The notes under the pieces were generated by a model. That model ran no database searches and was not told the DNA's origin. It was given only the letters and a program-made list of their open reading frames with translations. A stretch of DNA of 64,000 nucleotides from Neisseria sp. Lineage in GTDB: Bacteria > Pseudomonadota > Gammaproteobacteria > Burkholderiales > Neisseriaceae. Below are positions 8,626 to 32,999 of the stretch, piece after piece; the stretch's first letter is position 1; each line of letters begins with the position of its first letter. A program made the translations under genes and the position numbers. The DNA lies in NCBI RefSeq assembly GCF_030530745.1, contig NZ_JAUMUI010000009.1, positions 1 through 64,000 of the forward strand, given 5' to 3'.

Positions 8626-8786
8626 TCGTCTTTTTGGCTTGAAAGCCGGAACAAATAGATATTGTTAATTTTTCCTGTCCTTTTCCTGCAGCACAGGCGG
8701 CAGCCTGCGGCAGAAAAAATTTATATCATGAAACCCCATCGGGGTGTTTTACGGCCGGGCCGTTTCAAACCGCAATAACGTAATAC

Positions 8787-9809: not shown

Positions 9810-10899
9810 GCTGTTTGCCAAAGTCGGTTGGAGGGCTTTTTTCCCGCTTCATCAGCCCGATAACGGCCTGAGGGCTGATTTCATTAACTGTTCCTTTAAA
9901 AAACAAACAATCGCTTTTGCTGCTTCTCGGATACCAGTTCTCGAAATTCTGCGGATTTTTGTGATAAAGGCCGATAATCCGTTTGTCTAATGCGGCAGCA
10001 ATATGAATAATGGCGGTATCCGGTGAAACAACGGTATCGGCAAAACGCAAAATTTCTATACTGTCATTGATTGTTTGTGTGTCCGCATACACAAAGCAGT
10101 TTTTTCTTGGCCGGCATAATGCCGTTAATGCAGGGGTTGCTTCAGGGTAGGTCAGCAATACAAATTGCCGCAGGGGAAACGCCTCCTGCAATGCAGCCAG
10201 CATTTTCCCAATGGCCGCATTATCAAATGTGCGTGATTTGGAAGCCCCGAAAAAATTAAGTGCAATATAGTCTTTCAAGGCATTTTCCTGCAGAAACCGC
10301 CGCACCCCTTCGGCAGATGCAGTGCTTTCAGGCAGAGCCGGGGCAGTATCTATCTGTGTAAAACCCAAAAGCTTCAAAGCCTCTGCATAAATATCTGCAT
10401 AGTGCTGCCGCTTATTGGTGATATTCAGATTAAACAGGCGGTAATCGGCCTTATCCAAGCCGACGTTATACGGGCTGTTCAACGCATTGAGCAAAACCAA
10501 ATCGCGGTCCCGCAGAAACAGCGTGGGTTCTATGGTTACGTTATATTGCCCCGCCAATGATTTTCCCAGTTTCCAATAGGCGGCGGCAGACTTTGCCTTC
10601 ACTTCATGCACAGCATCGATATAAGGGTTATCGTCGAATAACCGGCGGTTTTTCGAACTGCATACCACCCCGATCTTAATATCCGGATTAGCCAGTTTGA
10701 TTTCCCTGAAAGCAAACGAGCTGACGATATAATCGCCTATTTTCCCGTCTTGCCGTAAGAACAATATCGAAGCCAGGCTTTGCGGATTAAGCCCGACAGC
10801 AGATGCTGCGGGCACCCGGTCGAAAAAAGCTTTGCTCCATTTCAACCGTTGCGCCTTTAATGCATCCCTTAATTTGGTATGGTAGGTTTTGAGAAACAT
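9796..10899 (-). CDS. Glycosyltransferase family 9 (heptosyltransferase-like)
   Basis: Protein of 367 residues resembling heptosyltransferases that build the lipooligosaccharide core at the inner face of the membrane. The N-terminal fold has ILFLRQDGKIGDYIVSSFAF (the GT9 'GDxxxxxP'-like loop) and the C-terminal half has VVSPDTAIIHIAAALDKRIIGLY, the usual family-9 donor-site block. It is the first gene of a three-gene overlapping run. An uptake sequence lies just upstream of the ATG. I cannot tell whether the donor is heptose or another sugar. It does not look like a core waaC/waaF copy, since it is longer at the N-terminus. Confidence 0.8.
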   Translation of the reverse strand: MFLKTYHTKLRDALKAQRLKWSKAFFDRVPAASAVGLNPQSLASILFLRQDGKIGDYIVSSFAFREIKLANPDIKIGVVCSSKNRRLFDDNPYIDAVHEVKAKSAAAYWKLGKSLAGQYNVTIEPTLFLRDRDLVLLNALNSPYNVGLDKADYRLFNLNITNKRQHYADIYAEALKLLGFTQIDTAPALPESTASAEGVRRFLQENALKDYIALNFFGASKSRTFDNAAIGKMLAALQEAFPLRQFVLLTYPEATPALTALCRPRKNCFVYADTQTINDSIEILRFADTVVSPDTAIIHIAAALDKRIIGLYHKNPQNFENWYPRSSKSDCLFFKGTVNEISPQAVIGLMKREKSPPTDFGKQHEQT

Positions 10900-15772: not shown

Positions 15773-15894
15773 AATACGGTTTCTTTTTATTTTTCAAACA
15801 GCCGGCTGCCCAAATGTGAAATTGTGTTCCCGTTTTAGAATCGACATGGTAGCCGACCGATAAGATATTCTCCTACACCTTTTCAAGGATAGGT

Positions 15895-17490
15895 TTAATT
15901 TCCTGCCGAATGAAAATCAGTCTGAATCTGATGAGCATTTCCAAGTATTGGAAAATCAGTAGCATTGCCATCTATTTTCATCAGAGATTCTGGTTTTGAT
16001 AACACACGAACCTCGGAACAACGTGCTTTATAAACTTCTTGTTCCACTTGGGGAAAATAACCGTTCACTGATTCGAGAACATGGATAAAACTATTCCAGC
16101 TATGGCGTTCTTGTAAAAGTTCCCGACTATACCGCCATGTATTCTCCAGCAATATCTTATCTGAAGTTATATTTTTGATTTTTATTATATTTTTTTCTAA
16201 AACATCATTATCAATAAGTAATGCATCCGGATGGATTAATTCCCCGATACCGCCCACATCATAAGAGATAACCGGCAGACCGTTGGATATTGCCTCAATT
16301 AATACATTAGGCAGTCCGTCATATTGTGAGGTATAAAGAAAAGCAGCATATTGCTGTTTGCCTGCGATTTCCGAAAACGAATTGTATTTTCCGAAATATT
16401 TTACATTTTTCAAAGTTTGGAGCTGTTCTAATTCTTTTCGGCAGACACGTTCAGACTCTCCGTAAACGTGGAACTCCAATTCAGGCATGGCTTTGGCAAT
16501 TTGATACAGCAGCTCCGGGCGTTTTTGCTTGGCAATCCGGCTGGCCCACAGAACCGGTGCCGATTTTCCTGCAGCGGCATAAGGTTTCAGGTTGCCTAAA
16601 AAAGGAAAGTAGACCGTTTTCATTAACCCGTCCAAACCCGTTAACTGACTTTGCTCATCGGGGTACCAGCGGGTGTCGCAGAACACACTTTCTATAAAAT
16701 GAAAAGTCTCGGGCAAATAGCGTGCATAGCCAAAATAAATACCAGGCTCGTATTCGTCTTCGCAAAAAACACTGGCAAAAAGTTTTTTATCCATAGATTT
16801 TAACTGGAGGCCATATTTTTTATAAACATCCCAACCGAGAGCGGAATTAATATTGTGTATGGTTTGCGCAGGAGTCTGAAGAAGCAGGCGGACCAACAAT
16901 TCTGCCGACTTGTGCGGGCTGAGCTTCTCTGAAAATCCTGAAAAATTCAAATGGATTGCAGATGCAGGAAGCCTGTCAAGCCAAGGGGATTCAGCATTTT
17001 CGGTAGTAACCAGCAGAATCTTCATACCTTTTTCATGCTGGGCATTAATATGGTGCAACAAACCCAAATCCGCGCCGCCGCGCTTAAGCCAAGGAGCCAG
17101 AAAAACCACATCAAAATCCAAATGTTTCAAATGACGCATAAGGAGACCGTAAGCTTCACCGTAGCTGTTATGCTCCAGATTAGGAGAAGGTTGATAGCTG
17201 TGCTGGGAAAGCTGGTTGAGGAAATCTTTGCTCGGTTGCAGTGCCGGCTCAATGACACCCAGCGCTTTCAGCTCCCCCATCAAAAAAGAATTAAAAGGAT
17301 GACTATGATCGGCTGTATTGTGTTTGGGCGGTTTCGGCCACCATTCTCTGCGTTCGATCTTTCCTCCGGCACGCAACAGCCGCTGTTTCAGGCGGCTTTT
17401 TGGAAAAGCTTTGACCAATGGTTTGAAAATGATTTTCCAAACAGCCCGAACAATGGATTTAACCATAGATTTAACAGGATTTTTTTTCAT
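15895..17490 (-). CDS. Glycosyltransferase family 4 (GT-B)
   Basis: A 531-residue retaining-type GT-B enzyme, probably adding a sugar to the surface glycan from a nucleotide donor. The N-terminal basic stretch (about 60 residues) could touch the membrane. The acceptor domain has FLAPWLKRGGADLGLLHHI. The donor domain has LWASRIAKQKRPELL, FHVYGESE and the family block DGLPNVLIEAISNGLPVISYDVGGIGEL. Its base composition is more AT-rich than the housekeeping flanks, as in the next three genes, which points to acquisition. A 122-nt gap separates it from the large GT2 gene. Confidence 0.85.
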   Translation of the reverse strand: MKKNPVKSMVKSIVRAVWKIIFKPLVKAFPKSRLKQRLLRAGGKIERREWWPKPPKHNTADHSHPFNSFLMGELKALGVIEPALQPSKDFLNQLSQHSYQPSPNLEHNSYGEAYGLLMRHLKHLDFDVVFLAPWLKRGGADLGLLHHINAQHEKGMKILLVTTENAESPWLDRLPASAIHLNFSGFSEKLSPHKSAELLVRLLLQTPAQTIHNINSALGWDVYKKYGLQLKSMDKKLFASVFCEDEYEPGIYFGYARYLPETFHFIESVFCDTRWYPDEQSQLTGLDGLMKTVYFPFLGNLKPYAAAGKSAPVLWASRIAKQKRPELLYQIAKAMPELEFHVYGESERVCRKELEQLQTLKNVKYFGKYNSFSEIAGKQQYAAFLYTSQYDGLPNVLIEAISNGLPVISYDVGGIGELIHPDALLIDNDVLEKNIIKIKNITSDKILLENTWRYSRELLQERHSWNSFIHVLESVNGYFPQVEQEVYKARCSEVRVLSKPESLMKIDGNATDFPILGNAHQIQTDFHSAGN

Positions 17491-17532
17491 TTGTTATTTC
17501 TTTTCCCAACAATTTCAATCAGTCCCTTTCCA

Positions 17533-18276
17533 TTACAGGCTCAGCTGTGAAAAAAAGCCAGACGGAGGAATAAGGGAGTTATATTGTATATGCTCCTGCA
17601 GCATGGAATTATCGCGACGGCGGTAAAACAGATAAGTTTGCAGAACAGGGACTATTTCTATTCCTGCTGCAATACAACGTAGATTGAAATCCCAATCTTC
17701 GAAAGCAAACTTCGTTTGCCTGCCGATTTTTTCATTGTATGGAAATTGCTTGAAAATATCTGTTTGCGAAAATACAGAAGATACCCAATAATGGCTATTC
17801 ATCATTTGTGCCTGCGGAATTTTCCTAGAAGGGAGAATAGCCTGTATCCCGATATGGCGCCCGAAGCTCAATACATGCCCGGGCATACACAATATAGGGG
17901 AACCGCTTTGGATTGACTGGCGGAGTGCCGCACTAACCCAATTTGAACTGAAAAAATCATCACCATCTAAAAAACCTACATACTCGGTACGAGTGTGGTC
18001 AATTCCAATATTGCGCGACGCACTCAAAGAACCGTTCGACGATTCAATAACTTGATCTTTACTGCTTCCATATCTGCTCAGATAATTTTTCACCGTTTGA
18101 GAAGTAAAAGCATTGGCACAGTCCAATATACAGATTAAATCGATACGGTTTCCATATTTCGCAGAGTAATTCCTAATCCGTTGAAATCCCAACAGGCTTT
18201 TATGTGCATAGACATCTTCACCATGAAAAGTCATGATTATTGTTGCAGGAGGCAGAGATATATGCGGATTTTTCAT
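17533..18276 (-). CDS. Glycosyltransferase family 2
   Basis: A 247-residue single-domain GT-A enzyme. The N-terminus reads ATIIMTFHGED, the donor loop SLSASRNIGIDHTRTEYVGFLDGDDFF contains the DGDD metal site, and FAFEDWDFNLRCIAAG is the usual 'ED' catalytic-base region. No membrane helices are present. It lies 42 nt upstream of the family 4 gene and 27 nt downstream of galE, so all three are probably one transcript. Linkage specificity cannot be read from sequence. Confidence 0.82.
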   Translation of the reverse strand: MKNPHISLPPATIIMTFHGEDVYAHKSLLGFQRIRNYSAKYGNRIDLICILDCANAFTSQTVKNYLSRYGSSKDQVIESSNGSLSASRNIGIDHTRTEYVGFLDGDDFFSSNWVSAALRQSIQSGSPILCMPGHVLSFGRHIGIQAILPSRKIPQAQMMNSHYWVSSVFSQTDIFKQFPYNEKIGRQTKFAFEDWDFNLRCIAAGIEIVPVLQTYLFYRRRDNSMLQEHIQYNSLIPPSGFFSQLSL

Positions 18277-18303
18277 ATCATATTTTCTCGTTTTACAAGT
18301 ATG

Positions 18304-19317
18304 TTATTCATAACCATTGGGATTCTTGCACAGCCAGTTCCATGAATCTTTTATCATTTCTTGCAAATTATATTTGGCCTTCCAACCTATCTGCTGAAAA
18401 GTAAAAGTTGGATCTGCATAGCAGCATGCAATATCTCCCAAACGCCGCGGTTTGATTTGGTAAGGAATATTTATCCCGGATATTTTTTCAAATGACTGAA
18501 CAATATCCAATACAGAATAACCAACTCCAGTACCTAAATTATAAATATGCACTCCAGATTCTTTATTTTTTATCTGCATTGCTTTCAGATGCCCCTCAGC
18601 CAAGTCCATCACATGAATATAATCACGTATACCAGTGCCATCGGGTGTGGGGTAGTCATTGCCAAAAACGGAAAGACAGTCGAGCTTTCCTGATGCGACT
18701 TGGCAAATAAAAGGAAGTAAATTATTTGGCGTTCCTTTCGGGTATTCACCTATCAAACCACTTTTATGTGCCCCTATCGGATTAAAATAGCGCAAAATAA
18801 TTACACTCCAGCGCGAATCCGAATTCTGCAGGTCGGATAAAATCCTTTCTGCCATATATTTTGAAGTGCCGTAAGGGTTTGTTGTTCCTCCTACAGGCAT
18901 ATTTTCTGTATAGGGAACACGATCAGCGTTACCGTACACTGTAGCTGATGAGCTGAAAACAATATTGAATATTCCGGCTTTTGCCATTTCCTCTGCTAAA
19001 ACCAACGTAGAATTTACGTTATTATCATAATATTTAATGGGATGTTGTGTACTTTCTCCAACTGCTTTTAACCCGGCAAAGTGCATTACGGTGTGTATAT
19101 CATGGGTGTTAAAAATTTTTTGTAGCAACTTTCTATCTCTAACATCACCTTGATAAAAGGGTACGGATTTTCCACAAATTTCTTCAATTTTTAATAATAC
19201 TTTCGGATTGGAATTGCAGAGATTGTCAATTATTACCACCTCATACCCTGATTGAATTAACGTTATTACAGTATGCGAGCCTATAAATCCGGCCCCTCCA
19301 GTAACCAGTATTCCCAT
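18304..19317 (-). CDS. galE: UDP-glucose 4-epimerase
   Basis: Converts UDP-glucose to UDP-galactose in the cytosol, supplying galactose for the lipooligosaccharide. It has 337 residues. It shows the NAD fold ILVTGGAGFIGSHT at the N-terminus, SSSATVYG, the catalytic Tyr-Lys pair in NPYGTSKYMAE, and RYFNPIGAH. A GGGAG ribosome site precedes the ATG at 19317. The gene is AT-richer than the housekeeping genes. In many neisseriae galE is instead in the capsule or siaD region, so a copy within the glycan block suggests that the neighbouring transferases use galactose or GalNAc. Confidence 0.95.
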   Translation of the reverse strand: MGILVTGGAGFIGSHTVITLIQSGYEVVIIDNLCNSNPKVLLKIEEICGKSVPFYQGDVRDRKLLQKIFNTHDIHTVMHFAGLKAVGESTQHPIKYYDNNVNSTLVLAEEMAKAGIFNIVFSSSATVYGNADRVPYTENMPVGGTTNPYGTSKYMAERILSDLQNSDSRWSVIILRYFNPIGAHKSGLIGEYPKGTPNNLLPFICQVASGKLDCLSVFGNDYPTPDGTGIRDYIHVMDLAEGHLKAMQIKNKESGVHIYNLGTGVGYSVLDIVQSFEKISGINIPYQIKPRRLGDIACCYADPTFTFQQIGWKAKYNLQEMIKDSWNWLCKNPNGYE

Positions 19318-19436
19318 ATTTGAGCTCCCTTCTTTAAATTAAATTCCTAATAAATTTAAATATTTAGATCGCAATCCCAGCACCCGAACCAATATGTGCA
19401 ACTTGTTATAACCTACAGTTGAAAATACAGTTTCAG

Positions 19437-20255
19437 TTATTGCCATTTAAAACAGCTTATTAGCTTATATAATTGATTTTTTTGATTTTTCTGTTTTTTT
19501 GTATCAATATTACAGATTAAATCATAATAGCCCAAACCATGTTTGACAAAAATTTCACTATGCTTCAAATACACTTTCTGCCAACTCTGTCTGACAGCCA
19601 TACCGTGTTTAGTAAGGCTGTCAGTTAATGATGAACTGTTTTGCCGTTTTCGGTAACGGAACAATATCTTCGGGATACGGACTGCTTCCCCTCCTCTGCT
19701 CAATATCCGTATCCAAAGATCCCAATCTTCATGTGTTTTAAGGCTTTCGTCAAAACCTCCCACATTTTTAAAATCTTCAGAACTATGCATGGCTACTGCC
19801 GGAATATGGTTTCCTTTAAGAAGCATTGCCAACCCTTCATAGGCCGGTAAATTCCATGTACCTGTTTGTACCCCAAACACTTCGCCTAGAGAATAAACCA
19901 ACTTGTACTCCGCTTTTTTTTCTAAAACGGCTACGCTTTTTTGAATATAGTCGGGCAGGATTTGGTCGTCGGCGTCGAGAAACAGAAAATATTCGCCTTT
20001 GGCCAAGCGGGCTGCATGGTTGCGGGCGGCGGCAACACCTTGGTTGCTTTGCGATGCAAAGCGGATGGCGGGTTTGTTTTGCAGCAGTTCTGCCAGAAAA
20101 GCGGCAGAAGCAGGAAGCGAACCGTCGTCGATAATGATGATTTCGATATTTGGGTAGCTTTGCCGCTCTACTGAAGCGATGGTTTCGGCAATATATTGTT
20201 CGCAGTTGTAATAAGGGATCATTACGGAAACCAGAGGTTTTTTCGCATCATTCAT
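19437..20255 (-). CDS. Glycosyltransferase family 2
   Basis: A 272-residue GT-A enzyme with VSVMIPYYNCEQYI at the N-terminus, DDGS at the donor site and FLDADD as the metal site. The segment AAARNHAARLAKGEYFLFLD is almost identical to module 1 of the large GT2 protein at 13052-15772, at protein and DNA level, which points to gene conversion or duplication. The DNA of the first half is GC-rich and that of the C-terminal half AT-rich, so the gene looks mosaic. Ribosome site CAGGA lies upstream of the ATG. The acceptor is unknown. Confidence 0.84.
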   Translation of the reverse strand: MNDAKKPLVSVMIPYYNCEQYIAETIASVERQSYPNIEIIIIDDGSLPASAAFLAELLQNKPAIRFASQSNQGVAAARNHAARLAKGEYFLFLDADDQILPDYIQKSVAVLEKKAEYKLVYSLGEVFGVQTGTWNLPAYEGLAMLLKGNHIPAVAMHSSEDFKNVGGFDESLKTHEDWDLWIRILSRGGEAVRIPKILFRYRKRQNSSSLTDSLTKHGMAVRQSWQKVYLKHSEIFVKHGLGYYDLICNIDTKKQKNQKNQLYKLISCFKWQ

Positions 20256-23153: not shown

Positions 23154-23285
23154 GATGGTTGCCGGAGTTCAGATAATCAAGAAAAGCCTGCATTTTACTG
23201 TTTCGGCGGGGTTTTGGATAGGCTTTCGGCTCCCTCAAAGAAAAACAAGATTTGGAAACGGCATCGGAGTGTAGGAAATCGTCGG

Positions 23286-23457
23286 GTTGTTTACACTTTT
23301 TATGCGAAACAGCTTTTATTTTCTGTCTGAACGATTGCTTTAGGATTTTTGGGTATTATCAAGAACCATGCGGCTTTGCTGTACCTTTCGGCATTCTTGA
23401 CAACACCCAAAAATCCCAAAATAGGTCTTCAAGCAGAAAAGGAAAAGTGTAAACAAC
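23286..23457. mobile_element. Inverted-repeat element (MITE or IS remnant)
   Basis: A 172-bp non-coding stretch with terminal inverted repeats GTTGTTTACACTTTT. Nested inside is a second inverted pair, GGATTTTTGGGTATTATCAA at 23343 and its near-complement ending at 23416. No open frame of note is inside. It lies exactly at the border between housekeeping DNA and the AT-rich island. It does not match the other repeat families in the window. Confidence 0.65.
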
Positions 23458-23580
23458 GCTAAGATTTCTTAACGCCACACATATTTGATACATGCACAAT
23501 GCCAACACTCAATATAACTTGAAAACGTTACCAATACTGCACAACCATTCAATTAATTGAAGTAAATCGTATAAACAGGC

Positions 23581-23622
23581 GAAAGGCCTCCTGAAAAAAT
23601 ACCTTTAACGGACGGCCTTTCA
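23581..23622 (-). terminator. Hairpin downstream of the biosynthetic operon
   Basis: GAAAGGCC and GGCCTTTC form an 8-bp stem with a long loop, 36 nt beyond the last gene of the island operon. The arms look like degenerate uptake sequences (CCTCCTGAA, GGACGGCC). Termination activity is a guess, since there is no long T run. Confidence 0.4.
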
Positions 23623-23657
23623 CTCAGAACGATATCCAGTACCTGATACCGTGTGAT

Positions 23658-24560
23658 CTAGAGTTGTTGCTTTCGTTTTTTGATTAGATCAGCTGGCCTA
23701 ACAACTTTATTTACCAACATTATAGAAATTATAACAATAATTGCTCCAACAATCATTGAAATTCGAATGGGTTCATCTAAAAATATTTTTCCAACTATCA
23801 TCGCAGCCAATGGGCTTAAAAATGTTACAGTTAATGTGCGTGTTGGTCCTATATCACTAATTAGCTTAAAATAAATTAAATATGCTATTGCGCTGCAAAT
23901 TAAAGATAATGCAATAAGTTGTAGAAAATTAATTACCGTGAAGGGGCCAGAAGGTGCATCCATAAGCAAAAAAGGAGAAATAACGATACTAGCCCCTAAT
24001 TGACTACACGCAGCTAATGCTAATGGTTTAATATGTTTTGCTTTTTTCTTAATATACACACCAGATAATGCATAACATGATGCCGCTCCTAAGCAAATGA
24101 ATATACTTAATATTACATTATAATTTACTCCTATATTTATCATTCCAGTATAACTAACCAGCCCAACACCCAACATTCCTAAAAAAAGACCAAAAATTCT
24201 ATCTGCTGATAAATGTTCTTCTAACTAAATCGCAGAAAACAAGGCACCAAATAACGGAGAACTAGCATTAATAATCGCAAGATATGCAGCAGGTAGATGT
24301 AAAGCTGAAAAGGAATAAAATAAAAATGGTAATCCTGAATTTACAATTCCTATTCCAAAGTACAACTTCCAGTTTTGTTTCCATTGCAAATCAAATTTTA
24401 TAAGAATAGCATATATAACAAGTGATATGCCAGCTAAAAATAATCTGAAATCAGCCGTGCCAATAACCCCTAAAACAGGGGCTAATGTTCTTGTAAAAAT
24501 AAAAGAAGAACCTGAAATTATCGATAAAAATATCAAAATTATCCAGTGTATTAGCTTCAT
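23658..24560 (-). pseudogene. EamA/DMT-family exporter interrupted by an amber codon
   Basis: A multi-helix EamA (drug/metabolite transporter) protein of 300 codons is encoded here, but codon 112 is TAG (bases 24225-24227). Both sides are in the same frame with no other stop, so one base change explains the break. Family members usually have Trp here (FSAIW.EE), one base away as TGG. The start is ATG 24560 after AGAGGTG. The ten-helix pattern is otherwise intact on both sides. As last gene of the cluster it probably once exported the product. Suppression, a sequencing error or a recent null allele are all possible. Confidence 0.85.
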
Positions 24561-24599
24561 AATCACCTCTAATAATAACCATAATAAAAATGCAATATA

Positions 24600-25187
24600 C
24601 TAATCATGTTTAGTTGCAATAATAACACCACACGACCAAATCAATGAACAGATTTTTAAACTATTCCTAAATTTGAGATCTTTTATCAAATTTCTCACTT
24701 TTATTGCATGACCCTCGGGCCAGTTTTTTTGAGGCAACATGTCATCAATTACATATACTCCTCCTGGAGCTAGCAAGCCTAGTGCCAAATCCAAGGATTG
24801 ATATTTTCCTGCCCACGTATCAGCAAATATTAAATCGTAACGACTAGATTTTTCAGTTTCACTAATTAAAAAATCATTACCATCCGAATGAACAATAGTT
24901 ATTCGCGGATCATCGCCTAAATATTTCCGAGCAACAGCTAACCATTTTTGTTCATTATCAACAGTTGTTAGATGACCACTTATATTGAGCCCATCTATAA
25001 TCCAAGAACTTGCAAGGCCAGTTCCTGTACCCAGTTCAAGGCAGCGGCCGTTTGGTTTGATGGCAGCCAGCATACGAAGTAAAGCATTCACATTAATCTC
25101 ACTAGGCATATCAAAATCTAATTTTTTAGATTCTAATAGTATTTCATTAAATTTTTTCGGCAGTTGATTAATATTTAAATGTTCCAT
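24600..25187 (-). CDS. Class I SAM-dependent methyltransferase
   Basis: A 195-residue cytosolic enzyme that should transfer a methyl group from S-adenosylmethionine. Motif I is RCLELGTGTGLASSW (about residues 44-58), the acidic residue of motif II is in TTVDNEQKWLAVARKY, and DLIFADTWAGKY and LLAPGGVYVIDDMLP form later motifs. The layout is like small O-methyltransferases of the caffeoyl-CoA type. It is 75 nt downstream of the desaturase gene and shares its strand and very AT-rich codon use. The substrate is presumably the cluster product. Confidence 0.82.
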   Translation of the reverse strand: MEHLNINQLPKKFNEILLESKKLDFDMPSEINVNALLRMLAAIKPNGRCLELGTGTGLASSWIIDGLNISGHLTTVDNEQKWLAVARKYLGDDPRITIVHSDGNDFLISETEKSSRYDLIFADTWAGKYQSLDLALGLLAPGGVYVIDDMLPQKNWPEGHAIKVRNLIKDLKFRNSLKICSLIWSCGVIIATKHD

Positions 25188-25262
25188 ACAAATAACCTAA
25201 AACAAATGATAAATGAAGTAATAAATATAACAAAACATTTTAATTCTAATAAATAATCATAT

Positions 25263-26444
25263 TTATATACAAAAATGACTCCTAGGAACATCTCTACTTT
25301 CTAATATAGAAAATGAGTGATTCAACATATTTTTTAACCCCCATAATTCCTGGTTAGCCATATTTTTTGCTAAAGGTGGAGACGAAAGATCATCAATCAT
25401 TAGTTGCCTTTCAAAAAGAGAACATTGCCAATTTGAAGGATCCCCTCCTATAAATCCCGCCAAATGGTGCCAATCATGTACAGGTAAATCCCCCACTAAA
25501 CAAGATATTCGTACAGGAGTATGAATAAAAATCATCCTAATATACCATTTAAACCATAGATAATAAGACGATATTACATTTAAATTCACTGTAATAGGAC
25601 ATCTTTCACCTATAAACCTTCCCCAAGAATAAAGAGCATAATTATTTTTACCTTCAGGTGCTTTCTCTGATGTTAACCAAGCATGCTCAGTAAGAAATTG
25701 TAATAATGCACTACATTGATAACCAAAGATAACAGGTAACCAAACCACTATTAAGACTGGCAATACTCCTAGCTTTAAAGGCAATCCAATAAATAAAAAT
25801 ACAACCCAAACAAATGTAATAATCTTCCACCATATTGTTCTCTCATTTCCTAATGAGGATTTCAGTCTAGTGAAAAAAAATGAAAAATGAAAGTTTAGAG
25901 AAAAAATAGTTTTCCATAATAACTTCCAAGAATTTTCAATAGAAATACCTGGCTTAAATCCCAGTGAAAACAGAAATGCTGCATCTGCATCTTCTATTGT
26001 TGTAAATCGATTCTTACTATGATGTCGTAAATGATCTCGTCTATACTCAACAGCACTTTGTACTAAAATAAAAGTACTAATAAATTCTAAAATTAAATCA
26101 TTATATTTTGAATATCTAGGTAAAAAAGCTTTATGTACACAGTGATGGCCAATTACTACTTGTAATTTTCGCATTTGTCCTATAGCTACAAGCCAACAAA
26201 TAGGGCACAAAATTCCAAGAACCCAATACCAATAACTAGTACCAAATAAGAATACTAAAAAAGGTAATAAGAAGCTAAAAAACAAATATAATACGGTTGT
26301 GAATAGATATATCGATGGGCTTATAACATTAAACCTCTTACCTTCTAGGGCTTTTCCTGTTATTCTTGTTAAAATAGGTTGTAGCCAATTTGGTAAAACC
26401 AACATAGACTCACGAACACCTTTTTCATAATAAGATTTGATCAT
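25263..26444 (-). CDS. Membrane fatty acid desaturase-like protein
   Basis: A 393-residue integral membrane protein with the three histidine boxes of the desaturase/hydroxylase family: HHCVH (residues 100-104), HLRHH (138-142) and HDWHH (323-327). These bind a diiron centre. Hydrophobic helix pairs lie around 43-90 and 205-250, as in the family. It could desaturate or hydroxylate an acyl chain bound to lipid, CoA or the carrier protein encoded upstream. It is 17 nt downstream of the ketosynthase-like gene. It is not a housekeeping desaturase that I recognise from Neisseria. Confidence 0.85.
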   Translation of the reverse strand: MIKSYYEKGVRESMLVLPNWLQPILTRITGKALEGKRFNVISPSIYLFTTVLYLFFSFLLPFLVFLFGTSYWYWVLGILCPICWLVAIGQMRKLQVVIGHHCVHKAFLPRYSKYNDLILEFISTFILVQSAVEYRRDHLRHHSKNRFTTIEDADAAFLFSLGFKPGISIENSWKLLWKTIFSLNFHFSFFFTRLKSSLGNERTIWWKIITFVWVVFLFIGLPLKLGVLPVLIVVWLPVIFGYQCSALLQFLTEHAWLTSEKAPEGKNNYALYSWGRFIGERCPITVNLNVISSYYLWFKWYIRMIFIHTPVRISCLVGDLPVHDWHHLAGFIGGDPSNWQCSLFERQLMIDDLSSPPLAKNMANQELWGLKNMLNHSFSILESRDVPRSHFCI

Positions 26445-26461
26445 AATTATTTACTCATTCA

Positions 26462-27364
26462 TTAATTACAATATCTAAAAACAGTAACACCGATACTACG
26501 CCTACTTGGAACTACCACAGCAATAATATCATTTTTCTTTAAATTTTTACCTACAATAATTTCAGACAAATTAATTAATCCATCTGAAGCCATACAGTGC
26601 CCTAATTTATATTGTGTATAAATCTGTTGATGTGGAATTTTTAGAATCTTAGCAACTCGAGCATTAAATATTGTACTCATATTATGAGTGATTATATAGG
26701 TATTACTACTATGCAAATCTATAAACAGTAAATTATCTAAAAACTTCCTGGCAGCACTCAACAACTCATCAAGATTACTATCTAAATCCATAGGATTAAA
26801 ATCCAAAGGTACTTCAGATTTAATATGTCGAATCATACTATCTAACATTTGAAACGGCCCTTCATTTTTACTGATTAAGCAGGCTGTAGCTGCATCACTA
26901 TGCAAATATGCATTATTACCTACAACTCGTGCGAGATGAGCATCCTCTATATCATCAGCAATAATAACCAAAATATTTTCAGCTAGTGACGAATTAATCA
27001 TCGCTTGTGCTGTTCTCAAAATAGGGGTCAGATCTCCACAATTTTGGAACCCAATAAATTGAATATAAGAATGATACAATCCTAAGTTTGATATCAAATC
27101 ATGACCAATATCTCTTTTAAAATCCAATAAATTAATAGAATTTGATCCAAAAAGGACAACATCAATATCCATCAAATCAATTTGATTTTTCTTTAGACAT
27201 TTATTCGCAGCACTAAGTGCAAGATGAAGAATATCCTGATTATTTTTACAATAATGGCTAGATCCTTTTGCAAGCAATTGCAATGTTGAGTATCGATCTA
27301 ACCCTAGATCAGATATATGATGTATAGAACCTAAAGTATGAGTAATATCCAGCAAATAAGCCAA
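26462..27364 (-). CDS. FabH-like ketoacyl synthase III family protein
   Basis: A 300-residue thiolase-fold protein. The likely nucleophile is Cys109 in FQNCGD, and His227 lies in ITHNMS. At the position where FabH has the third residue, Asn, this protein reads LGHCMAS with His256, so the triad would be Cys-His-His. LHSDAATACLIS resembles the FabH 'GDGA' segment. The start is TTG at 27364, one nt past the previous stop, with AAGGA upstream; the next Met is far inside. It may condense or transfer an acyl group onto the carrier-bound intermediate rather than make fatty acids. Confidence 0.78.
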   Translation of the reverse strand: MAYLLDITHTLGSIHHISDLGLDRYSTLQLLAKGSSHYCKNNQDILHLALSAANKCLKKNQIDLMDIDVVLFGSNSINLLDFKRDIGHDLISNLGLYHSYIQFIGFQNCGDLTPILRTAQAMINSSLAENILVIIADDIEDAHLARVVGNNAYLHSDAATACLISKNEGPFQMLDSMIRHIKSEVPLDFNPMDLDSNLDELLSAARKFLDNLLFIDLHSSNTYIITHNMSTIFNARVAKILKIPHQQIYTQYKLGHCMASDGLINLSEIIVGKNLKKNDIIAVVVPSRRSIGVTVFRYCN

Positions 27365-27365
27365 A

Positions 27366-28424
27366 TTAAATTCCTTTTAACTCAATAGATTGAATCCAAG
27401 ATTCAGAACTTGAATAAGTTTTATTTCCAGAAGAAAAAATTTTTTTTAATCTATATGACATTAAATTAGAAAGAGTTGGATCAATAGAAACATTAAATTT
27501 TTCTCCTTCAATCAATAAATTATCTACTGTTTTAACTCCTAAAGCAGTTGATGTTATGAAAATTTCTTTTAGGGACCTTGTTAAAATAGCATTTTTAATC
27601 TCTTCAATAAAAACATCTCGTTCTTCCATTTCTAATCCAGTATTACTTTGGATAAGTTCAATAACACTTTGTCTAGTAACTCCTGATAAAATTGTATCTC
27701 TAAGCTTAGGCGTAATTATTTTATTGTTTATACGAAAAAAAATATTCATTGTGCTTGCCTCTTCAATCATACCATCATGAATAGAAGATAACCAAAGCAC
27801 AGCATCCGCCCCCTGTTTTTGAGCTTGTTCTGTAGCTAAAAATTGATGAGCATAATTAGCTCCAGTTTTTGCAAACCCTAATCCCCCAGGAGTTGCACGA
27901 TGAAAATGATTTATGACAGAAAGTGTAAATTCTTTTGGTTTAAATTCACGGATAGGAGCTGCTAAAACATAAAATAAATATTCTTTGCTTATGATTGGTA
28001 ACATATGGCTATCCAAACCAATTAATACAGGACGTATATACATCCATTTGCTTGGAAATGGATTATTCCAATTTTCTAACTCTGAACAAACTTGATAAAC
28101 AGATTTAATAAAAATATCAAATGAAGGGAAATTTAGACATAATCGCTGAGCAGATTTTTGAAATCGTCTATAATTTAATGATAAACGAAATAAATTTACT
28201 TTTGAACCTATACGATATGCTTTCATCCCTTCAAAAATACTTGCACCAAATTGCAATGCCATAGCACCCGGATTAAGTTGAAGTTCATGAAAATCATATA
28301 ATGAAGGTATATCCCATATATTATTACTAGATCTTGCAACAGATATCTTAGGAGCCCACCCTTCAAACAAATTTTCTGAAGGCAGATTATCTTTCAATAA
28401 TTTTATATCCTCAAATTTAGTCAA
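27366..28424 (-). CDS. Class IV aminotransferase (branched-chain type)
   Basis: A 352-residue PLP enzyme. Hallmarks are LQFGASIFEGMKAYR (residues 57-71), the PLP-binding Lys186 in GFAKTGANYA, and EEASTMNIFF. This is the branched-chain aminotransferase pattern, so it likely interconverts branched or aromatic amino acids and 2-oxo acids. The start is TTG at 28424, with a perfect AGGAGG site 8 nt upstream and an 8-nt overlap with the adenylation gene. The codons are very AT-rich, unlike a core ilvE. In this setting it may supply or recycle an amino acid building block. Confidence 0.88.
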   Translation of the reverse strand: MTKFEDIKLLKDNLPSENLFEGWAPKISVARSSNNIWDIPSLYDFHELQLNPGAMALQFGASIFEGMKAYRIGSKVNLFRLSLNYRRFQKSAQRLCLNFPSFDIFIKSVYQVCSELENWNNPFPSKWMYIRPVLIGLDSHMLPIISKEYLFYVLAAPIREFKPKEFTLSVINHFHRATPGGLGFAKTGANYAHQFLATEQAQKQGADAVLWLSSIHDGMIEEASTMNIFFRINNKIITPKLRDTILSGVTRQSVIELIQSNTGLEMEERDVFIEEIKNAILTRSLKEIFITSTALGVKTVDNLLIEGEKFNVSIDPTLSNLMSYRLKKIFSSGNKTYSSSESWIQSIELKGI

Positions 28425-29988
28425 TTTTACTTCCTCCTATCAATGATTTAATCATCTTCTTTCTATCATTTTTTCCATTTTCCGTAACAGGAATACTCTC
28501 ATGAAAATAATAACGCCTAGGCAACATATATCTTGGTAATATCTGTGAAAGATAATATCTAAGATCAGATTCTACTGAACCTGAAATCAATGATTTACCT
28601 TGATCATTCAAAACTAATGCTGCACATAAAATTTCATTTTCCTCTTCAACTATCGTAAAAACACAGCAGTTTGATATATACTTAAAAGAATTAATATGTT
28701 TTTCGATTTCTTCTATTTCAATACGGTTTCCATTAATTTTTACCTGATTATCTAATCTTCCTACAAAATAAAAACATCCATTTTTATCAAAAAAACAATT
28801 ATCTCCAGTTTTGAAAACTTTATTTAAATCCATAGGTTGATTTGGATCATTTATAAGTCTTTTGGATGTTTCTTCAGGCAATTTCCAATATCCACTGAAC
28901 AATGGCAATCCCCTAATTACAAGCTCTCCTATCCGATCAGATTCATATATTCTATTATTATTTTCATCCCATAACATCATTTCTATAGCACTATGCCCTT
29001 TACCAACAGGGGCGTGAGATATTTCATTAGATAAAAAATAATTAGTATCTAAAATTTCAAATGTGCAGGCAATACTCTCTGATTGTCCATATATATTATA
29101 AAAAACTATTTCTGGTAATTTTTCATAGATTTTTCTCATATTGGCAACAGGAAAATGTTCACCTGCAAAAATTATTTGCTTTAGTGTTACAAATTGACTT
29201 ATTTTTTCATAACACACTTTAAGTATTAATTTCCATACAGTTGGGACACTACTTAAATGAGTAATTTCCCACTTTACTAATAAATCAATTAATTTTTCAG
29301 GTCGTTTTAACAATAATTTATTAGGTAAATATAAAGTTGTCCCCGTACTTAAACATAAACCGATATCCAATAATGAAAAATCAAATTGCAATGGAGACAA
29401 ACTTGCATATCTAGATCTAAGAGGAATTTTAATATGATCAATTAATCCTTTGAAAAAAGAAACTACTGCAACATGACTCATCACAATACCTTTAGGTTTT
29501 CCAGTTGTTCCTGACGTAAATATAATCCATACAGCATCAGTTTCTAATGATTTTTTTTCAGCTGGGATCATAATACTAGGATTTTTTTGAATATGTATAC
29601 AGAATCTATTGAATATTGGCTCAATACAGTTTTCATTTAAATGTTGATTCAGCACATGATTATCTTCAAATAAGATTAACACAGGATCTAACTCTTCAAT
29701 AATACTATGATATCTGGATTGAGGAGTTTCAGGAGAAATAACTGTAAATATTGATCCTACAATTGATGATGCCAATAAAAAACAAATACTATAGAAACTT
29801 GAGTCTGCAACAATAACTATTCTATCACCAGTTTTAATACCCATATCTTTTAACCAAATGGCACATTGATATGAACTATGTTTTAATGTATTATAAGTAT
29901 AACTTCCATAAGGATCTATAATTGCATATGAGTCATTACTTCTTTTATTAAATTTTTCATTAAGCCATAAATCATGAAGAAATTCCAT
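28417..29988 (-). CDS. Stand-alone amino-acid adenylation enzyme
   Basis: A 523-residue AMP-forming ligase that activates a carboxylate with ATP and loads it on a carrier protein. Core motifs are A3 IFTSGTTGKPKG (156-167), A4 FDFS (202-205), A5 NIYGQSES (298-305), A7 KTGDNCFF (393-400), A8 GRLDNQVKINGNRIE (410-424) and A10 with Lys506 in ENGKNDRK. The Asp in FDFS is the residue that holds the alpha-amino group in peptide synthetases and DltA, so an amino acid is the likely substrate. No condensation or thioesterase domain is attached. It starts 4 nt after the RraA-like gene. Confidence 0.88.
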   Translation of the reverse strand: MEFLHDLWLNEKFNKRSNDSYAIIDPYGSYTYNTLKHSSYQCAIWLKDMGIKTGDRIVIVADSSFYSICFLLASSIVGSIFTVISPETPQSRYHSIIEELDPVLILFEDNHVLNQHLNENCIEPIFNRFCIHIQKNPSIMIPAEKKSLETDAVWIIFTSGTTGKPKGIVMSHVAVVSFFKGLIDHIKIPLRSRYASLSPLQFDFSLLDIGLCLSTGTTLYLPNKLLLKRPEKLIDLLVKWEITHLSSVPTVWKLILKVCYEKISQFVTLKQIIFAGEHFPVANMRKIYEKLPEIVFYNIYGQSESIACTFEILDTNYFLSNEISHAPVGKGHSAIEMMLWDENNNRIYESDRIGELVIRGLPLFSGYWKLPEETSKRLINDPNQPMDLNKVFKTGDNCFFDKNGCFYFVGRLDNQVKINGNRIEIEEIEKHINSFKYISNCCVFTIVEEENEILCAALVLNDQGKSLISGSVESDLRYYLSQILPRYMLPRRYYFHESIPVTENGKNDRKKMIKSLIGGSKID

Positions 29989-29992
29989 AATA

Positions 29993-30661
29993 CTAAAACT
30001 CCACTATAATAGGTTCATCTCTTAATATATGTCCTTCAATATTCATCATTTTTATGATATCCTCACCTGCAATTATACGTTTTTTATACATTTCTTCTTT
30101 CTTATTTTTAATAGATGCTGATTTAATAATTAACCTTGCATGCTCTTTAGGTACATACAACATTCCATCCATATCTCCAAAAATCCAATCACCTAAATCA
30201 AAGCTAACATCACCAATTGATATAGATTTTGTATAATGGGTATCTCTATTTATCTTTCCTAAAGAAGCAGCCATTGGAGAACAAAATAAAGCCCAAACAG
30301 GTAATTCTAATATACTAGCCTCCGCAACATCTCTCACCCCCCCAAGGCAAACAATTCCACTAAGATTTTTTTGCTTAGCAGCTAGCATAACAATATCACC
30401 TAATAATGCTTTTTTTTGACAATAATCTTTAATTAATAAAACGCTTCCTTCAGGTACTTTATTTAGCCCTTGTAATACAGGAAGAATCTCACCTTTTGTT
30501 TCTACTGGAAACACTGGGCCAGCTAAAAATAAATTAGGTGTAAAATTTTGTAGACTATGTTGTTTTATAATTTTGACATATCCCATGCCCTTATCCCAAA
30601 CCACAGCAGTTCCAAGCCTTTTTGCTTCACTTAGCATTTGATTTATAATATTAATTTCCAT
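29993..30661 (-). CDS. RraA-like protein (aldolase/decarboxylase family)
   Basis: A 222-residue protein of the RraA/HMG-aldolase fold. Visible blocks are LLGDIVMLAAKQKNLSGIVCLGGVRDVAEASILELPVWA (about 87-125, including Arg110-Asp111) and GDWIFGDMDGMLYVP. Some members bind divalent metal and cleave or decarboxylate 4-hydroxy-2-oxo acids; RraA itself inhibits RNase E. The start is ATG 30661, overlapping the carrier-protein gene by 11 nt. A G7 run lies in the coding strand (30337-30343). Within this operon an enzymatic role on a 2-oxo acid is more likely than RNase control. It is not the housekeeping RraA as far as I can tell. Confidence 0.75.
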   Translation of the reverse strand: MEINIINQMLSEAKRLGTAVVWDKGMGYVKIIKQHSLQNFTPNLFLAGPVFPVETKGEILPVLQGLNKVPEGSVLLIKDYCQKKALLGDIVMLAAKQKNLSGIVCLGGVRDVAEASILELPVWALFCSPMAASLGKINRDTHYTKSISIGDVSFDLGDWIFGDMDGMLYVPKEHARLIIKSASIKNKKEEMYKKRIIAGEDIIKMMNIEGHILRDEPIIVEF

Positions 30662-30890
30662 AATTTTTATATATTGATTTAATAGTTGAAAATTTTGATA
30701 CTTTAAAATCATCTATATCAATAGAGTTTCCTGTTAAATTTTCAATAAAAATAATTAATTCAACAAGAATTAAAGAATCAACATATCCCGATTCAATAAT
30801 AAGAGTATCTTCTTGAATCAAACTAGAATCAATTCCTGCTTTTTCTGAAATGAATTTTTTTACCTCAAAAGTAAATTTTTCATATATCAT
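30651..30890 (-). CDS. Acyl/peptidyl carrier protein
   Basis: A 79-residue carrier protein. The phosphopantetheine Ser lies in YVDSLILVELI, preceded by an acidic helix region and followed by the typical FSTIKSIY helix. The start chosen is ATG 30890 with AAGGA just upstream, not the longer frame to 30911. It sits between the AurF-like and RraA-like genes and overlaps the latter. The adenylation enzyme two genes on is the obvious loading partner. No phosphopantetheinyl transferase is encoded nearby, so a host one would be used. Confidence 0.87.
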   Translation of the reverse strand: MIYEKFTFEVKKFISEKAGIDSSLIQEDTLIIESGYVDSLILVELIIFIENLTGNSIDIDDFKVSKFSTIKSIYKNYGN

Positions 30891-30932
30891 GATTTTCCTT
30901 CCCATATTCAATTAATGTTTAAATCTAAAATA

Positions 30933-31805
30933 CTATTTAGCTGGTAATAAATCCATTTCTCCTAAAAAGTTAATTAGAGAATTAACCCTTTTTATAGATT
31001 TTGGACTTTTAGCAAAAAAACTCTCATTTGAATACGATATCAATTTTTCTCTTAATAAAAAGGCTTCTTTAATTCCAATCTCTTGATAAATCTTTATATT
31101 ATGGTAATCAATATGCCTTGTTTTTAAATAATTAAGAACATGATCTTGTAACTTTTTCCACTCAAATGAACCAACTAACTGTTTTACAAATTCCACATGT
31201 TCACGTACTAACAGCCTGCCAAATGATATATGCCGTCCTTCATCTGCTACATGATAGGCATTAATAGCACGAACCAACTCAGGTAACCTATCATCATTCA
31301 TTAGAGTTTCATTAATCCCCTGCCCTAATTCTTCAAAAATTAAAACATGAATAAATGTTAATAAATCTTCAGTTTCAGCATACTCCCACATATCTCCTTG
31401 TGCGTAAGAATAAAGAATTGGGTAAAATTTACCGTATTTCTCACAAAAATCTGCAAACATTCTCATATGATTATTTTCTTCTTCTATAAAAAAATGAAAA
31501 TATTTTCTAAATGCTGAATATCTTGATTTGAACATACGCCTAACCATATTGGCTACAACTTCTTTTTCTCCAGATGCAGATACTGAGCATAAAAGACAAA
31601 ATTCTAATTGCGACAACCGTTTTTGTTGTTCAATAGATAATTTATCATATTCAGGCTGGCCATAAATTGTTATAAGCTCAGGTGAAATCCAAAAGCTATC
31701 CATATCAGGAGCCTTATTCCAAGGCAAATCGTCAAATGGGTTTAATCTTCGCTTAATAGAAGCTTTTAAAAGGTTTTCGATGATATTATCTTTGCGTATT
31801 GACAT
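30933..31805 (-). CDS. AurF-like diiron N-oxygenase family protein
   Basis: A 290-residue helical ferritin-like protein that should carry two irons. The likely ligands are Glu68, Glu110 and His113 (EENNHM), Glu158, His185, Glu189 and His192 (HVADEGRH). The 27-residue step from Glu158 to His185 and the following 4 and 3 match AurF, the p-aminobenzoate N-oxygenase, including its extra third histidine. It probably oxidises an amine to hydroxylamine or nitro, possibly on the carrier-bound substrate. It is the first gene of the operon; the ATG at 31805 has no strong ribosome site. Confidence 0.82.
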   Translation of the reverse strand: MSIRKDNIIENLLKASIKRRLNPFDDLPWNKAPDMDSFWISPELITIYGQPEYDKLSIEQQKRLSQLEFCLLCSVSASGEKEVVANMVRRMFKSRYSAFRKYFHFFIEEENNHMRMFADFCEKYGKFYPILYSYAQGDMWEYAETEDLLTFIHVLIFEELGQGINETLMNDDRLPELVRAINAYHVADEGRHISFGRLLVREHVEFVKQLVGSFEWKKLQDHVLNYLKTRHIDYHNIKIYQEIGIKEAFLLREKLISYSNESFFAKSPKSIKRVNSLINFLGEMDLLPAK

Positions 31806-31851
31806 GGGATATTTAGTACCTTTATGTTTTTTAAGATTAAAAATAATTTTT

Positions 31852-31881
31852 AATGTATGCCCCCCCCCCTAGAAAGTTCAA
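31852..31881 (-). promoter_or_regulatory. Predicted poly-G spacer promoter of the biosynthetic operon
   Basis: On the - strand, TTGAAC (-35, 31876-31881) and TACATT (-10, 31852-31857) are separated by 18 nt, of which ten are a G run. Transcription would start about 40 nt upstream of the AurF-like ATG. Neisserial porA and fetA have the same design, in which tract length sets promoter strength; at G9 the spacer would be the optimal 17. Confidence 0.55.
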
Positions 31882-32079
31882 ATTAATTTATAACTATTTG
31901 ATTATAAAATGAATTTATTTCAAAACTTGGATCAACATTCTTGTTCTTTCAAAGGTTAATACACATTTTTCATATTTAAATTTGTGCAATCACAAAGATC
32001 ACATGCTACTACTTAAAAGTATTTTTAGCATAATGTAATTCCTATCCCCTATAAATACGATGAGGCTGCCTTTTGTATT

Positions 32080-32088
32080 CCCCCCCCC
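32080..32088. repeat. Homopolymer C9
   Basis: Nine C in AT-rich DNA. On the - strand it is flanked by TTGGAT and TACAAA at 15-nt spacing, which could be a second, weaker promoter towards the operon. Function is uncertain. Confidence 0.6.
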
Positions 32089-32218
32089 TAATATCCAACT
32101 TACTCGTGACTAATCTGAATTTTTAAGAGATTCCACAAAATAAGCAGTATTAAGTATTAACTGCATAACTCACATTTCCTCTATAATTGAAAAGTCTTTG
32201 CATCAAAATTCCTTGCGG

Positions 32219-32247
32219 TTGCCCCCCCCCGTTTGTGGCGGTAAAAT
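32219..32247 (+). promoter_or_regulatory. Predicted poly-C promoter of the OmpA-domain gene
   Basis: TTGCCC (-35) and TAAAAT (-10, 32242-32247) are 17 nt apart, and the C9 run covers the end of the -35 and the start of the spacer. The same cassette with a different spacer (TTGAAA, 18 nt, TAAAAT) is found at 60062-60091, which supports the assignment. Confidence 0.55.
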
Positions 32248-32342
32248 CTGGTTTTATCTGCAGGGGCTCAGCCTCTTTCAAATCAGGGCAACGCTTTATG
32301 TGCCGCCCCATGTTGAAACATAATCTATTAAAGGAAAAGGAA

Positions 32343-32999
32343 ATGTCGGACAACAACGACCACAAAGAACAGCGCATCGGTTTATGGATTGCCGGCGGCG
32401 CAGCGGCGCTGTCGGTATTGTCGATTCTTTTTTACGCCGTTTGGGGTTGGGAAAACGGCAAAATCGAAGGTTCGCCCGGCTACGGCCAAGAAGCTTCGGC
32501 GGCAGTAGTTGAAGAAACCGTCGCTGCGGCTTCCGCTCACGAAACCCAGGCTCACGAAACTTCGGAGGCCTCGGAAAACGATACTGCCGCCGCGTCTGCT
32601 GCAGAATCTTCCGCTTCCGGCGCCGCCGCCGAACAGATTCTGGCCGACACTCAAACCGTTACGGCGGGCGACGGTGCGCAAACAGTGGTTGAAAACGGCA
32701 TTGTGAAGTTCTACTTTGCTACCGGCAAAGCCGATTTGGCCGCCGATACCGAAGAAGCCCTGCAAGATGTGCTGGCGGGGGTGAAAGAAGGCAGAAAGGC
32801 TGTAATTTCAGGCTTTCATGATGCCACAGGCAACCGCATGAAAAATGAAGAACTGTCGAAAAAACGCGCTTTTGCCGTGCGCGACGCCCTGCTGGGGCTG
32901 GGTGTGCCCGAGTCGCAAATCGAGCTGCGCAAACCTGAAAACGCAGAAGGCAGCGGCAACAACGCCGAAGCCCGCCGCGTAGAAGTGGTACTGGAATAA
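32343..32999 (+). CDS. OmpA-domain membrane-anchored protein
   Basis: A 218-residue protein with a short cytosolic N-terminus, one membrane helix (about residues 14-32, AGGAAALSVLSILFYAVWGW), a long Ala/Ser/Glu-rich flexible region (about 45-105), and a C-terminal OmpA-like peptidoglycan-binding domain (VKFYFATGKADLA ... SKKRAFAVRDALLGLGVPESQIE ... NNAEARRVEVVLE). The helix has no signal-peptidase site, so it is probably anchored in the inner membrane with OmpA in the periplasm. The ATG at 32343 has AAAGGAAAAGG upstream. It borders the AT-rich island but has host composition. Confidence 0.85.
   Translation: MSDNNDHKEQRIGLWIAGGAAALSVLSILFYAVWGWENGKIEGSPGYGQEASAAVVEETVAAASAHETQAHETSEASENDTAAASAAESSASGAAAEQILADTQTVTAGDGAQTVVENGIVKFYFATGKADLAADTEEALQDVLAGVKEGRKAVISGFHDATGNRMKNEELSKKRAFAVRDALLGLGVPESQIELRKPENAEGSGNNAEARRVEVVLE

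Follow-up and report, generated by a model that had tools for sequence, protein, structure and literature searches.

A candidate biosynthetic operon for amino acid N-oxidation on an AT-rich island of a Neisseria genome

In the glycine oxime and nitronate pathways (enteromycin carboxamide, akazaoxime/A-76356), a diiron oxygenase was proposed to turn glycine loaded on a nonribosomal peptide synthetase (NRPS) into an oxime, or into an O-methyl nitronate when a methyltransferase takes part (PMC9967187, citing He and Ryan 2021; sources marked "excerpts", as this one is, are represented by parts of their text). The stand-alone adenylation enzymes IdnL1, HitB and CmiS6, whose structure entries we identified through PMC11253843 (excerpts), load beta-amino acids. 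Here we describe a nine-gene operon which appears to combine enzymes of both kinds. It lies in the first 64,000 nucleotides of contig NZ_JAUMUI010000009.1 of Neisseria sp. (assembly GCF_030530745.1), the stretch analysed here and called the window below. In a 2021 survey, Neisseria had neither a cluster in MIBiG nor a compound in NPAtlas, and activity of N. mucosa against gonococci was reported without a known compound (PMC8549736, excerpts). We regard the chances as evenly balanced that the operon was acquired horizontally and serves to N-oxidise an amino acid, probably a beta-amino acid, bound to a carrier on the way to a small molecule. It is a compact candidate, and its two key steps, the choice of the amino acid loaded and its possible N-oxidation on the carrier, are open to assay with three soluble proteins. 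Should a beta-amino acid prove to be the substrate, beta-aminoacyl loading and N-oxidation would be joined in one operon.

The nine-gene operon and its island

Nine closely packed genes occupy the minus strand from 23658 to 31805. They are represented by ten open reading frames (ORFs), two of which belong to the EamA gene. In the order of transcription, and followed by the island that holds them, they are:

30933..31805, minus strand: AurF-type ferritin-like diiron oxygenase, 290 amino acids (aa); Pfam AurF, 113 bits against a cut-off of 29.6
30651..30890, minus strand: stand-alone carrier protein, 79 aa, with the serine of GYVDSL; NCBIfam matches to acyl carrier protein (ACP)-like models, all below cut-off
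29993..30661, minus strand: RraA/HMG-aldolase-like protein; Pfam RraA-like, 85 bits, and relatives in PDB
28417..29988, minus strand: stand-alone adenylation enzyme, putatively of the beta-aminoacyl-ACP synthetase type, 523 aa; Pfam AMP-binding, IdnL1 at 284 bits
27366..28424, minus strand: class IV aminotransferase resembling branched-chain aminotransferases (BCAT), 352 aa; Pfam Aminotran_4
26462..27364, minus strand: divergent enzyme resembling beta-ketoacyl-ACP synthase III (KAS III), 300 aa; Pfam ACP_syn_III, thiolase fold
25263..26444, minus strand: membrane oxygenase of the fatty acid desaturase type, 393 aa; Pfam FA_desaturase, three His boxes
24600..25187, minus strand: class I S-adenosylmethionine methyltransferase, 195 aa; Pfam Methyltransf_3
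23658..24566, minus strand: EamA/DMT transporter gene with an in-frame TAG; two ORFs in the same frame, each EamA by Pfam
23231..32318: island filling the intergenic gap between glyQ and an OmpA-like gene, from a comparison of the flanks with seven congeners

The sequence-only reading had placed nine genes on one strand here, and each gained a Pfam match, although the PP-binding match of the carrier is weak and below cut-off (E 0.0074, 17 bits against 20.8; the DSL serine is present). Re-reading the starts from the sequence placed the carrier ATG at 30890 and the RraA ATG at 30661, so that the RraA start overlaps the carrier end by 11 bases. With these starts, neighbouring genes overlap by 11 and 8 bases or are separated by gaps of 1 to 75 bases. 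Predicted functions in loading, N-oxidation, condensation and tailoring support the biosynthetic operon of that reading; its exporter gene, EamA, is not intact and carries the in-frame TAG.

The AT-rich character noted in the same reading is pronounced, with a G+C content of 30.9% in the island compared to 53.6% in the remaining window. The uptake core GCCGTCTGAA occurs 63 times in the window and not once inside the island, where 10.4 copies would be expected; AGGCCGTCTGAA, a Neisseria uptake sequence, is present in 49 copies in the window. The island is flanked by glyQ (named by eye) and the OmpA-like gene (PF00691). By our reading of the coordinates, 27 of the 46 other genomes in the genus have the two at most 450 bp apart, and in the remaining 19 no OmpA-like match adjoins glyQ. 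The gap measures 148-306 bp in the seven congeners fetched; in the two closest, homology stops near 23225-23230 on the left and resumes near 32319 on the right. Among 84 genomes of the family, the oxygenase is present in one, the window's own. Judged by composition and flanks, the nine-gene operon appears to be horizontally acquired, and we consider it a probably functional foreign biosynthetic operon whose combination of genes was not met elsewhere in our searches.

A palindromic element of about 200 bp with terminal inverted repeats lies at the left edge of the island (23272-23471), and a second copy is found on contig C17 of the same genome, with 83% identity over the 191 bases searched. 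At the right edge, the sequence that precedes the OmpA-like gene in congeners, a TATAAT box included, has been replaced by the island, and a C9 tract stands in front of the gene instead (32222-32343). Elsewhere in the window, glycosyltransferase-like and galE-like genes (names by eye; 7570-10899 and 13052-20255) flank a glyS-like gene and precede glyQ; much of this stretch is also lower in G+C.

Candidate functions of the encoded enzymes

Seven residues of the oxygenase (E68, E110, H113, E158, H185, E189 and H192) are invariant across 40 sequences, namely the window protein and 39 relatives. In Dob3, six metal ligands are accompanied by a seventh histidine typical of N-oxygenases (PMC12154687, excerpts); H185 corresponds to this histidine and the other six residues to the ligands, equivalence to Dob3 being set by spacing and alignment. 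The structure model of the oxygenase is confident (predicted local distance difference test, pLDDT, 92.1; predicted TM score 0.90), and its top Foldseek matches are AurF (2jcd) and CmlI (E 7e-5, TM 0.64, root-mean-square deviation 5.5), with R2-like oxidases ranking just behind. A phmmer search of the oxygenase and the desaturase against PDB gave no matches. In residues and modelled fold, the protein thus bears the marks of an AurF-type diiron N-oxygenase, and N-oxidation is predicted.

Relatives of the oxygenase are scattered and distant. Our genome samples were partial, with one genome per species (399 for the order, 398 for the phylum and 369 for the class). A match was found in 45 of the 399 genomes of the order, including its own, the best other at 32% identity, and in 25 of 72,556 plasmid records, the best at 30%. 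Viral contigs held no relatives of the oxygenase or of the adenylation enzyme. A scan of named genomes with one peptide pattern, by which a closer cluster may be missed, yielded at least 144 relatives in 592 stretches, of which the best 80 were kept, with identities up to 36%. In these 80 loci, several of which end at contig ends, partner genes were scored by tblastn at E 1e-4, which can miss divergent partners.

A ligase resembling aminoacyl-tRNA synthetases (aaRS) lies within 2.5 kb of the oxygenase gene in 76 of the 80 loci, and a nitronate monooxygenase was matched in 20. By analogy with the glycine proposal above, such aaRS-type units may act likewise on a loaded amino acid. Because of the seven conserved residues, the AurF/CmlI fold matches and the frequent neighbouring ligase, we favour N-oxidation on a carrier for the window enzyme. 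Counterparts of the window RraA, BCAT, methyltransferase and EamA proteins were matched in none of the 80 loci, and of the desaturase in one, L055. In this locus, from Streptomyces adustus, the desaturase relative (16011-17504, 128 bits) lies about 5.5 kb from the AurF-type gene. While no second copy of the full nine-gene set was found in these partial genome and plasmid searches, sub-sets recur: units of oxygenase, carrier and activator, and a core of adenylation enzyme, carrier and KAS in Paenibacillus.

Among solved structures, the adenylation enzyme matched IdnL1 with 284 bits, HitB with 264 and CmiS6 with 250, compared to 181 for DltA and 178 for GrsA; the 264 bits of LgrA come from adding up two domains (112 and 148). 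Enzymes for beta-amino acids have a beta13-beta14 loop one residue shorter and bulkier residues at GrsA 236/301 and keep the conserved Asp, and Leu220 of IdnL1 fits a small aliphatic side chain (PMC11253843, excerpts). The loop of the window enzyme is one residue shorter than in L009, L035, L159 and L108, which were taken as alpha-type, and equal to that of L109, L165 and L166; in the same alignment a second ligase of L109, of a different kind, has a still shorter loop. The conserved Asp is retained together with Phe at GrsA 236 (FDF), and Leu stands at the position of IdnL1 220. The segment FDFSLLDIG of the window enzyme is identical in IdnL1 and L166.

A relative at E 1e-50 was found in 6 of the 72,556 plasmid records. 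Three contexts were read (L165, L166 and L109); in L165 the gene has an annotated phenylalanine aminomutase as neighbour, and in L166 an annotated lysine 2,3-aminomutase together with polyketide synthase (PKS) genes. The class sample, searched at that threshold, gave a match in 5 of 369 genomes, including its own, the best other at 30%. The best adenylation match within the 80 oxygenase loci reached 172 bits, compared to 293-321 for the beta-type relatives. Sequence comparison groups the adenylation enzyme with the beta-aminoacyl-ACP synthetases. The higher score with IdnL1 than with GrsA, the short loop, the shared FDFSLLDIG and the aminomutases beside L165 and L166 are our reasons for proposing a beta-amino acid substrate.

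The RraA-like protein retains an RD-x2-E motif. The aminotransferase aligned to a mycobacterial BCAT and scored 200 bits with ilvE_II, below the cut-off of 250. Plasmid searches with both proteins returned long lists of distant relatives. The KAS III-like enzyme has Cys109, His227 and His256, with Cys109 aligned in sets of 8 and of 6 sequences, and its model adopts a thiolase fold at moderate confidence (pLDDT 66); on sequence and model it is assigned as KAS III-like by its fold and active-site Cys. The desaturase carries the His boxes HHCVH, HLRHH and HDWHH. Its relatives appeared in 4 of the 72,556 plasmid records; in none of these four contexts was an AurF-type gene annotated or matched, L104 having been compared with the window proteins as well, and one, L107, adjoins NRPS genes. 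Relatives of the methyltransferase, up to 49% identical, were found in 26 plasmid records, and in the two contexts read the window's other genes were not among the annotations.

Proposed pathway, alternatives and a possible switch

Three long G/C tracts lie at the right end of the island:

31860..31869, minus strand: G10 tract, 54 bp upstream of the AurF-type gene, a candidate phase-variable promoter element
32080..32088, minus strand: G9 tract, 274 bp upstream of the AurF-type gene, from the tract count
32222..32230, plus strand: C9 tract, 112 bp upstream of the OmpA-like gene's ATG (32343), from the tract count

The assembly contains 16 separate G/C tracts of at least 9, one of which adjoins a run of N. 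Three of the 16 fall within 371 bp here, compared to 0.0026 expected in such a stretch, an expectation computed after the cluster had been noticed. By the PhasomeIt criterion, a poly-G/C tract of at least 9 counts as transcriptional phase variation if an ATG lies no more than 200 bp away, and commensals other than N. lactamica have 1-7 poly-G tracts (PMC5953494, excerpts). G10 and C9 fall within this distance and G9 lies beyond it. The tract cluster suggests phase variation of the operon, with G10 as a possible source of stochastic on/off expression. Against this, a promoter scan of the region gave 3 sites versus 3.0 in shuffled sequences, none of them on the G10 tract and one, weak, spanning the C9 tract; moreover, poly-G runs can be sequencing artefacts. 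Phase variation has been linked with metabolite production in Photorhabdus and Myxococcus, so the idea itself is not new; a poly-G switch of a biosynthetic cluster was not among the literature matches listed. If G10 does switch, the operon would add a phase-variable locus for a small molecule to a genus whose surface structures are known to switch. Another C9 tract of this genome (L149, 1501-1509; G000:C8:5248) lies at the end of an open frame resembling a type I restriction specificity subunit (by eye) and is directly followed by a second such frame, likely a phase-variable hsdS.

In the pathway we propose, the adenylation enzyme would activate an amino acid and load it onto the stand-alone carrier; a small aliphatic beta-amino acid is the most likely substrate. 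The AurF-type enzyme would then oxidise the amine of the tethered residue to a hydroxylamine, an oxime or a nitro group. The acyl unit may be condensed or transferred by the KAS III-like enzyme, and this unit the desaturase-type enzyme, by desaturation or hydroxylation, and the methyltransferase could decorate; the EamA protein, if working, would export the product. The RraA-like and BCAT-like enzymes would most likely supply the precursor via alpha-keto acids. Gene content, conserved catalytic residues, the beta-type loop, the island and the tracts are observed; we infer the order of steps, the substrate, the product and on/off expression through G10. In a more specific version, which we hold to be unlikely, the operon is phase-variable through G10 slippage and its diiron enzyme N-oxidises a carrier-bound beta-amino acid to a 3-hydroxylamino, 3-oximino or 3-nitro acyl unit or to an isoxazolidinone- or isoxazolinone-type product. 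By chemical reasoning only, the N-OH of the intermediate could attack its own thioester to give a five-membered N-O ring. To our knowledge, no N-oxidation of a carrier-bound beta-amino acid by a diiron enzyme has been described.

Several observations weigh against the proposed pathway and lend themselves to other explanations. Ala occupies GrsA 301, as in GrsA, where the beta-type enzymes have a bulkier residue; Ala is also found in L165. The operon does not itself explain where a beta-amino acid would come from: by Pfam none of its nine genes encodes an aminomutase, and a search of the assembly for KamA-family genes (TIGR00238), which was positive in 9 of 14 control genomes and did not extend to aromatic aminomutases, found none. 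The BCAT-like enzyme retains the YxRP segment of alpha-keto-acid transaminases and has STA instead of GTA, and RraA-like proteins act on alpha-keto acids. Ala at GrsA 301 and these features of the BCAT-like and RraA-like proteins would suit tethered N-oxidation of an ordinary (hydrophobic) alpha-amino acid, built by BCAT and RraA through aldol and transamination steps, the beta-type loop being a relic; a diiron oxygenase of this general kind also acts on glycine (PMC9967187, excerpts). Since the beta-amino-acid enzymes outscore GrsA and DltA by about 70-105 bits and have the shortened loop in common with the window enzyme, we treat this explanation as possible yet somewhat improbable. The oxygenase itself may act on something else, because its nearest relatives share about 34-36% identity with it and it forms a lone deep branch of unsettled placement in a quick tree; this tree had 85 rows, reduced from 98 by leaving out 12 near copies and one duplicate record, and retains one suspect row, L063b, which pairs with the window protein on a long branch.

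The in-frame TAG at 24225-24227 splits EamA into ORFs 24225-24566 and 23658-24176, hinting at decay, although it may be a mutation or a base-call error. Together with the presence of the oxygenase in a single genome of the family, it would fit a non-functional acquisition kept by chance. The other eight frames, however, are open and closely spaced and keep the catalytic motifs checked, and we find decay a rather poor bet. Very improbable in our view is a diazeniumdiolate signal or metallophore cluster of the ham/mgo/pvf kind, the parallel drawn in the sequence-only reading. These clusters do pair an AurF-like enzyme with amino-acid adenylation, with an aminotransferase in hamG as here, but the A-T-R NRPS-like protein, the haem-oxygenase-like HamA, the HamE cyclase and a starter C domain are not among the nine genes (PMC5878181, excerpts), and membership was rejected. 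That reading's other proposals fared better. An N-oxidised amino-acid-derived product gains support from the oxygenase residues, fold and ligase neighbourhood, and its suggestion of an undescribed cluster met no published match in the literature searched. Its refuting case, that homologues of the nine genes are nowhere else found together, was not contradicted by our partial searches, which gave no second full set but did show recurring sub-sets. The beta-aminoacyl-type adenylation enzyme, the broken exporter gene and the long upstream poly-G tracts are new beyond it.

Comparison with known systems

Among the literature matches listed for nitronates and RraA-like proteins, no cluster had this gene set. 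Fragin/valdiazen (ham), mgo and pvf share with the window an AurF-like N-oxygenase for an activated amino acid, a role that is predicted for the window enzyme, and, in ham, an aminotransferase; HamF is a further ham protein without counterpart here (PMC5878181, excerpts). The nocuolin-type cluster was rejected as a match (PMC5333925, excerpts). Alongside a diiron N-oxygenase, a KAS III and a carrier, the lipothrenin cluster (lit) encodes a fatty acyl-AMP ligase and a ThiF protein, and is a different set (PMC10616846, excerpts).

Among the 80 oxygenase loci, a KAS III-like gene lies directly upstream of the AurF-type gene in five (L032, L035, L062, L095 and L103), as it does in L022. These clusters differ from the window in their seryl-tRNA-synthetase-like ligase (not found in L035), thioester reductase (not found in L103) and fatty acyl-AMP ligase; L022, L032, L062 and L095 show the order KAS, AurF, carrier, ligase and reductase, and L035 and L103 show it in part. 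They occur in Pseudomonadota, Myxococcota and Acidobacteriota (L022:8789-16913; L032 from 9018), and their six oxygenases form one supported tree group, which also includes L066, a locus that lacks KAS. Such clusters look like an uncharacterised N-oxidised lipid-amino-acid pathway. The uncharacterised Paenibacillus cellulosilyticus plasmid cluster L109 has homologues of the adenylation enzyme (36%), the carrier (37% over 73 positions) and the KAS III-like enzyme (25%). In place of the AurF, RraA, BCAT and desaturase genes of the window, it carries a P450, a PNPOx-like protein and a pyridoxal-phosphate-dependent decarboxylase.

The glycine oxime and nitronate pathways resemble the window set in having an AurF-type oxygenase that acts, or in the window would act, on a carrier-loaded amino acid, together with a methyltransferase. 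They use NRPS and PKS modules (PMC9967187, excerpts), whereas the operon has a loading ligase of another type, the stand-alone, putatively beta-type adenylation enzyme, and neither NRPS nor PKS. The window methyltransferase has no assigned substrate, no nitronate monooxygenase is among the nine genes, and the RraA, BCAT, KAS III-like and desaturase genes set the operon apart from these pathways. Compared to the loading of beta-amino acid starters in macrolactam pathways (IdnL1, CmiS6, HitB, VinN), the operon lacks a PKS, a second ligase and an aminomutase, has an N-oxygenase instead and differs by Ala at GrsA 301. It shares with that type a stand-alone adenylation enzyme and a stand-alone carrier, sequence kinship, the short beta13-beta14 loop, Phe at GrsA 236 and Leu at IdnL1 220.

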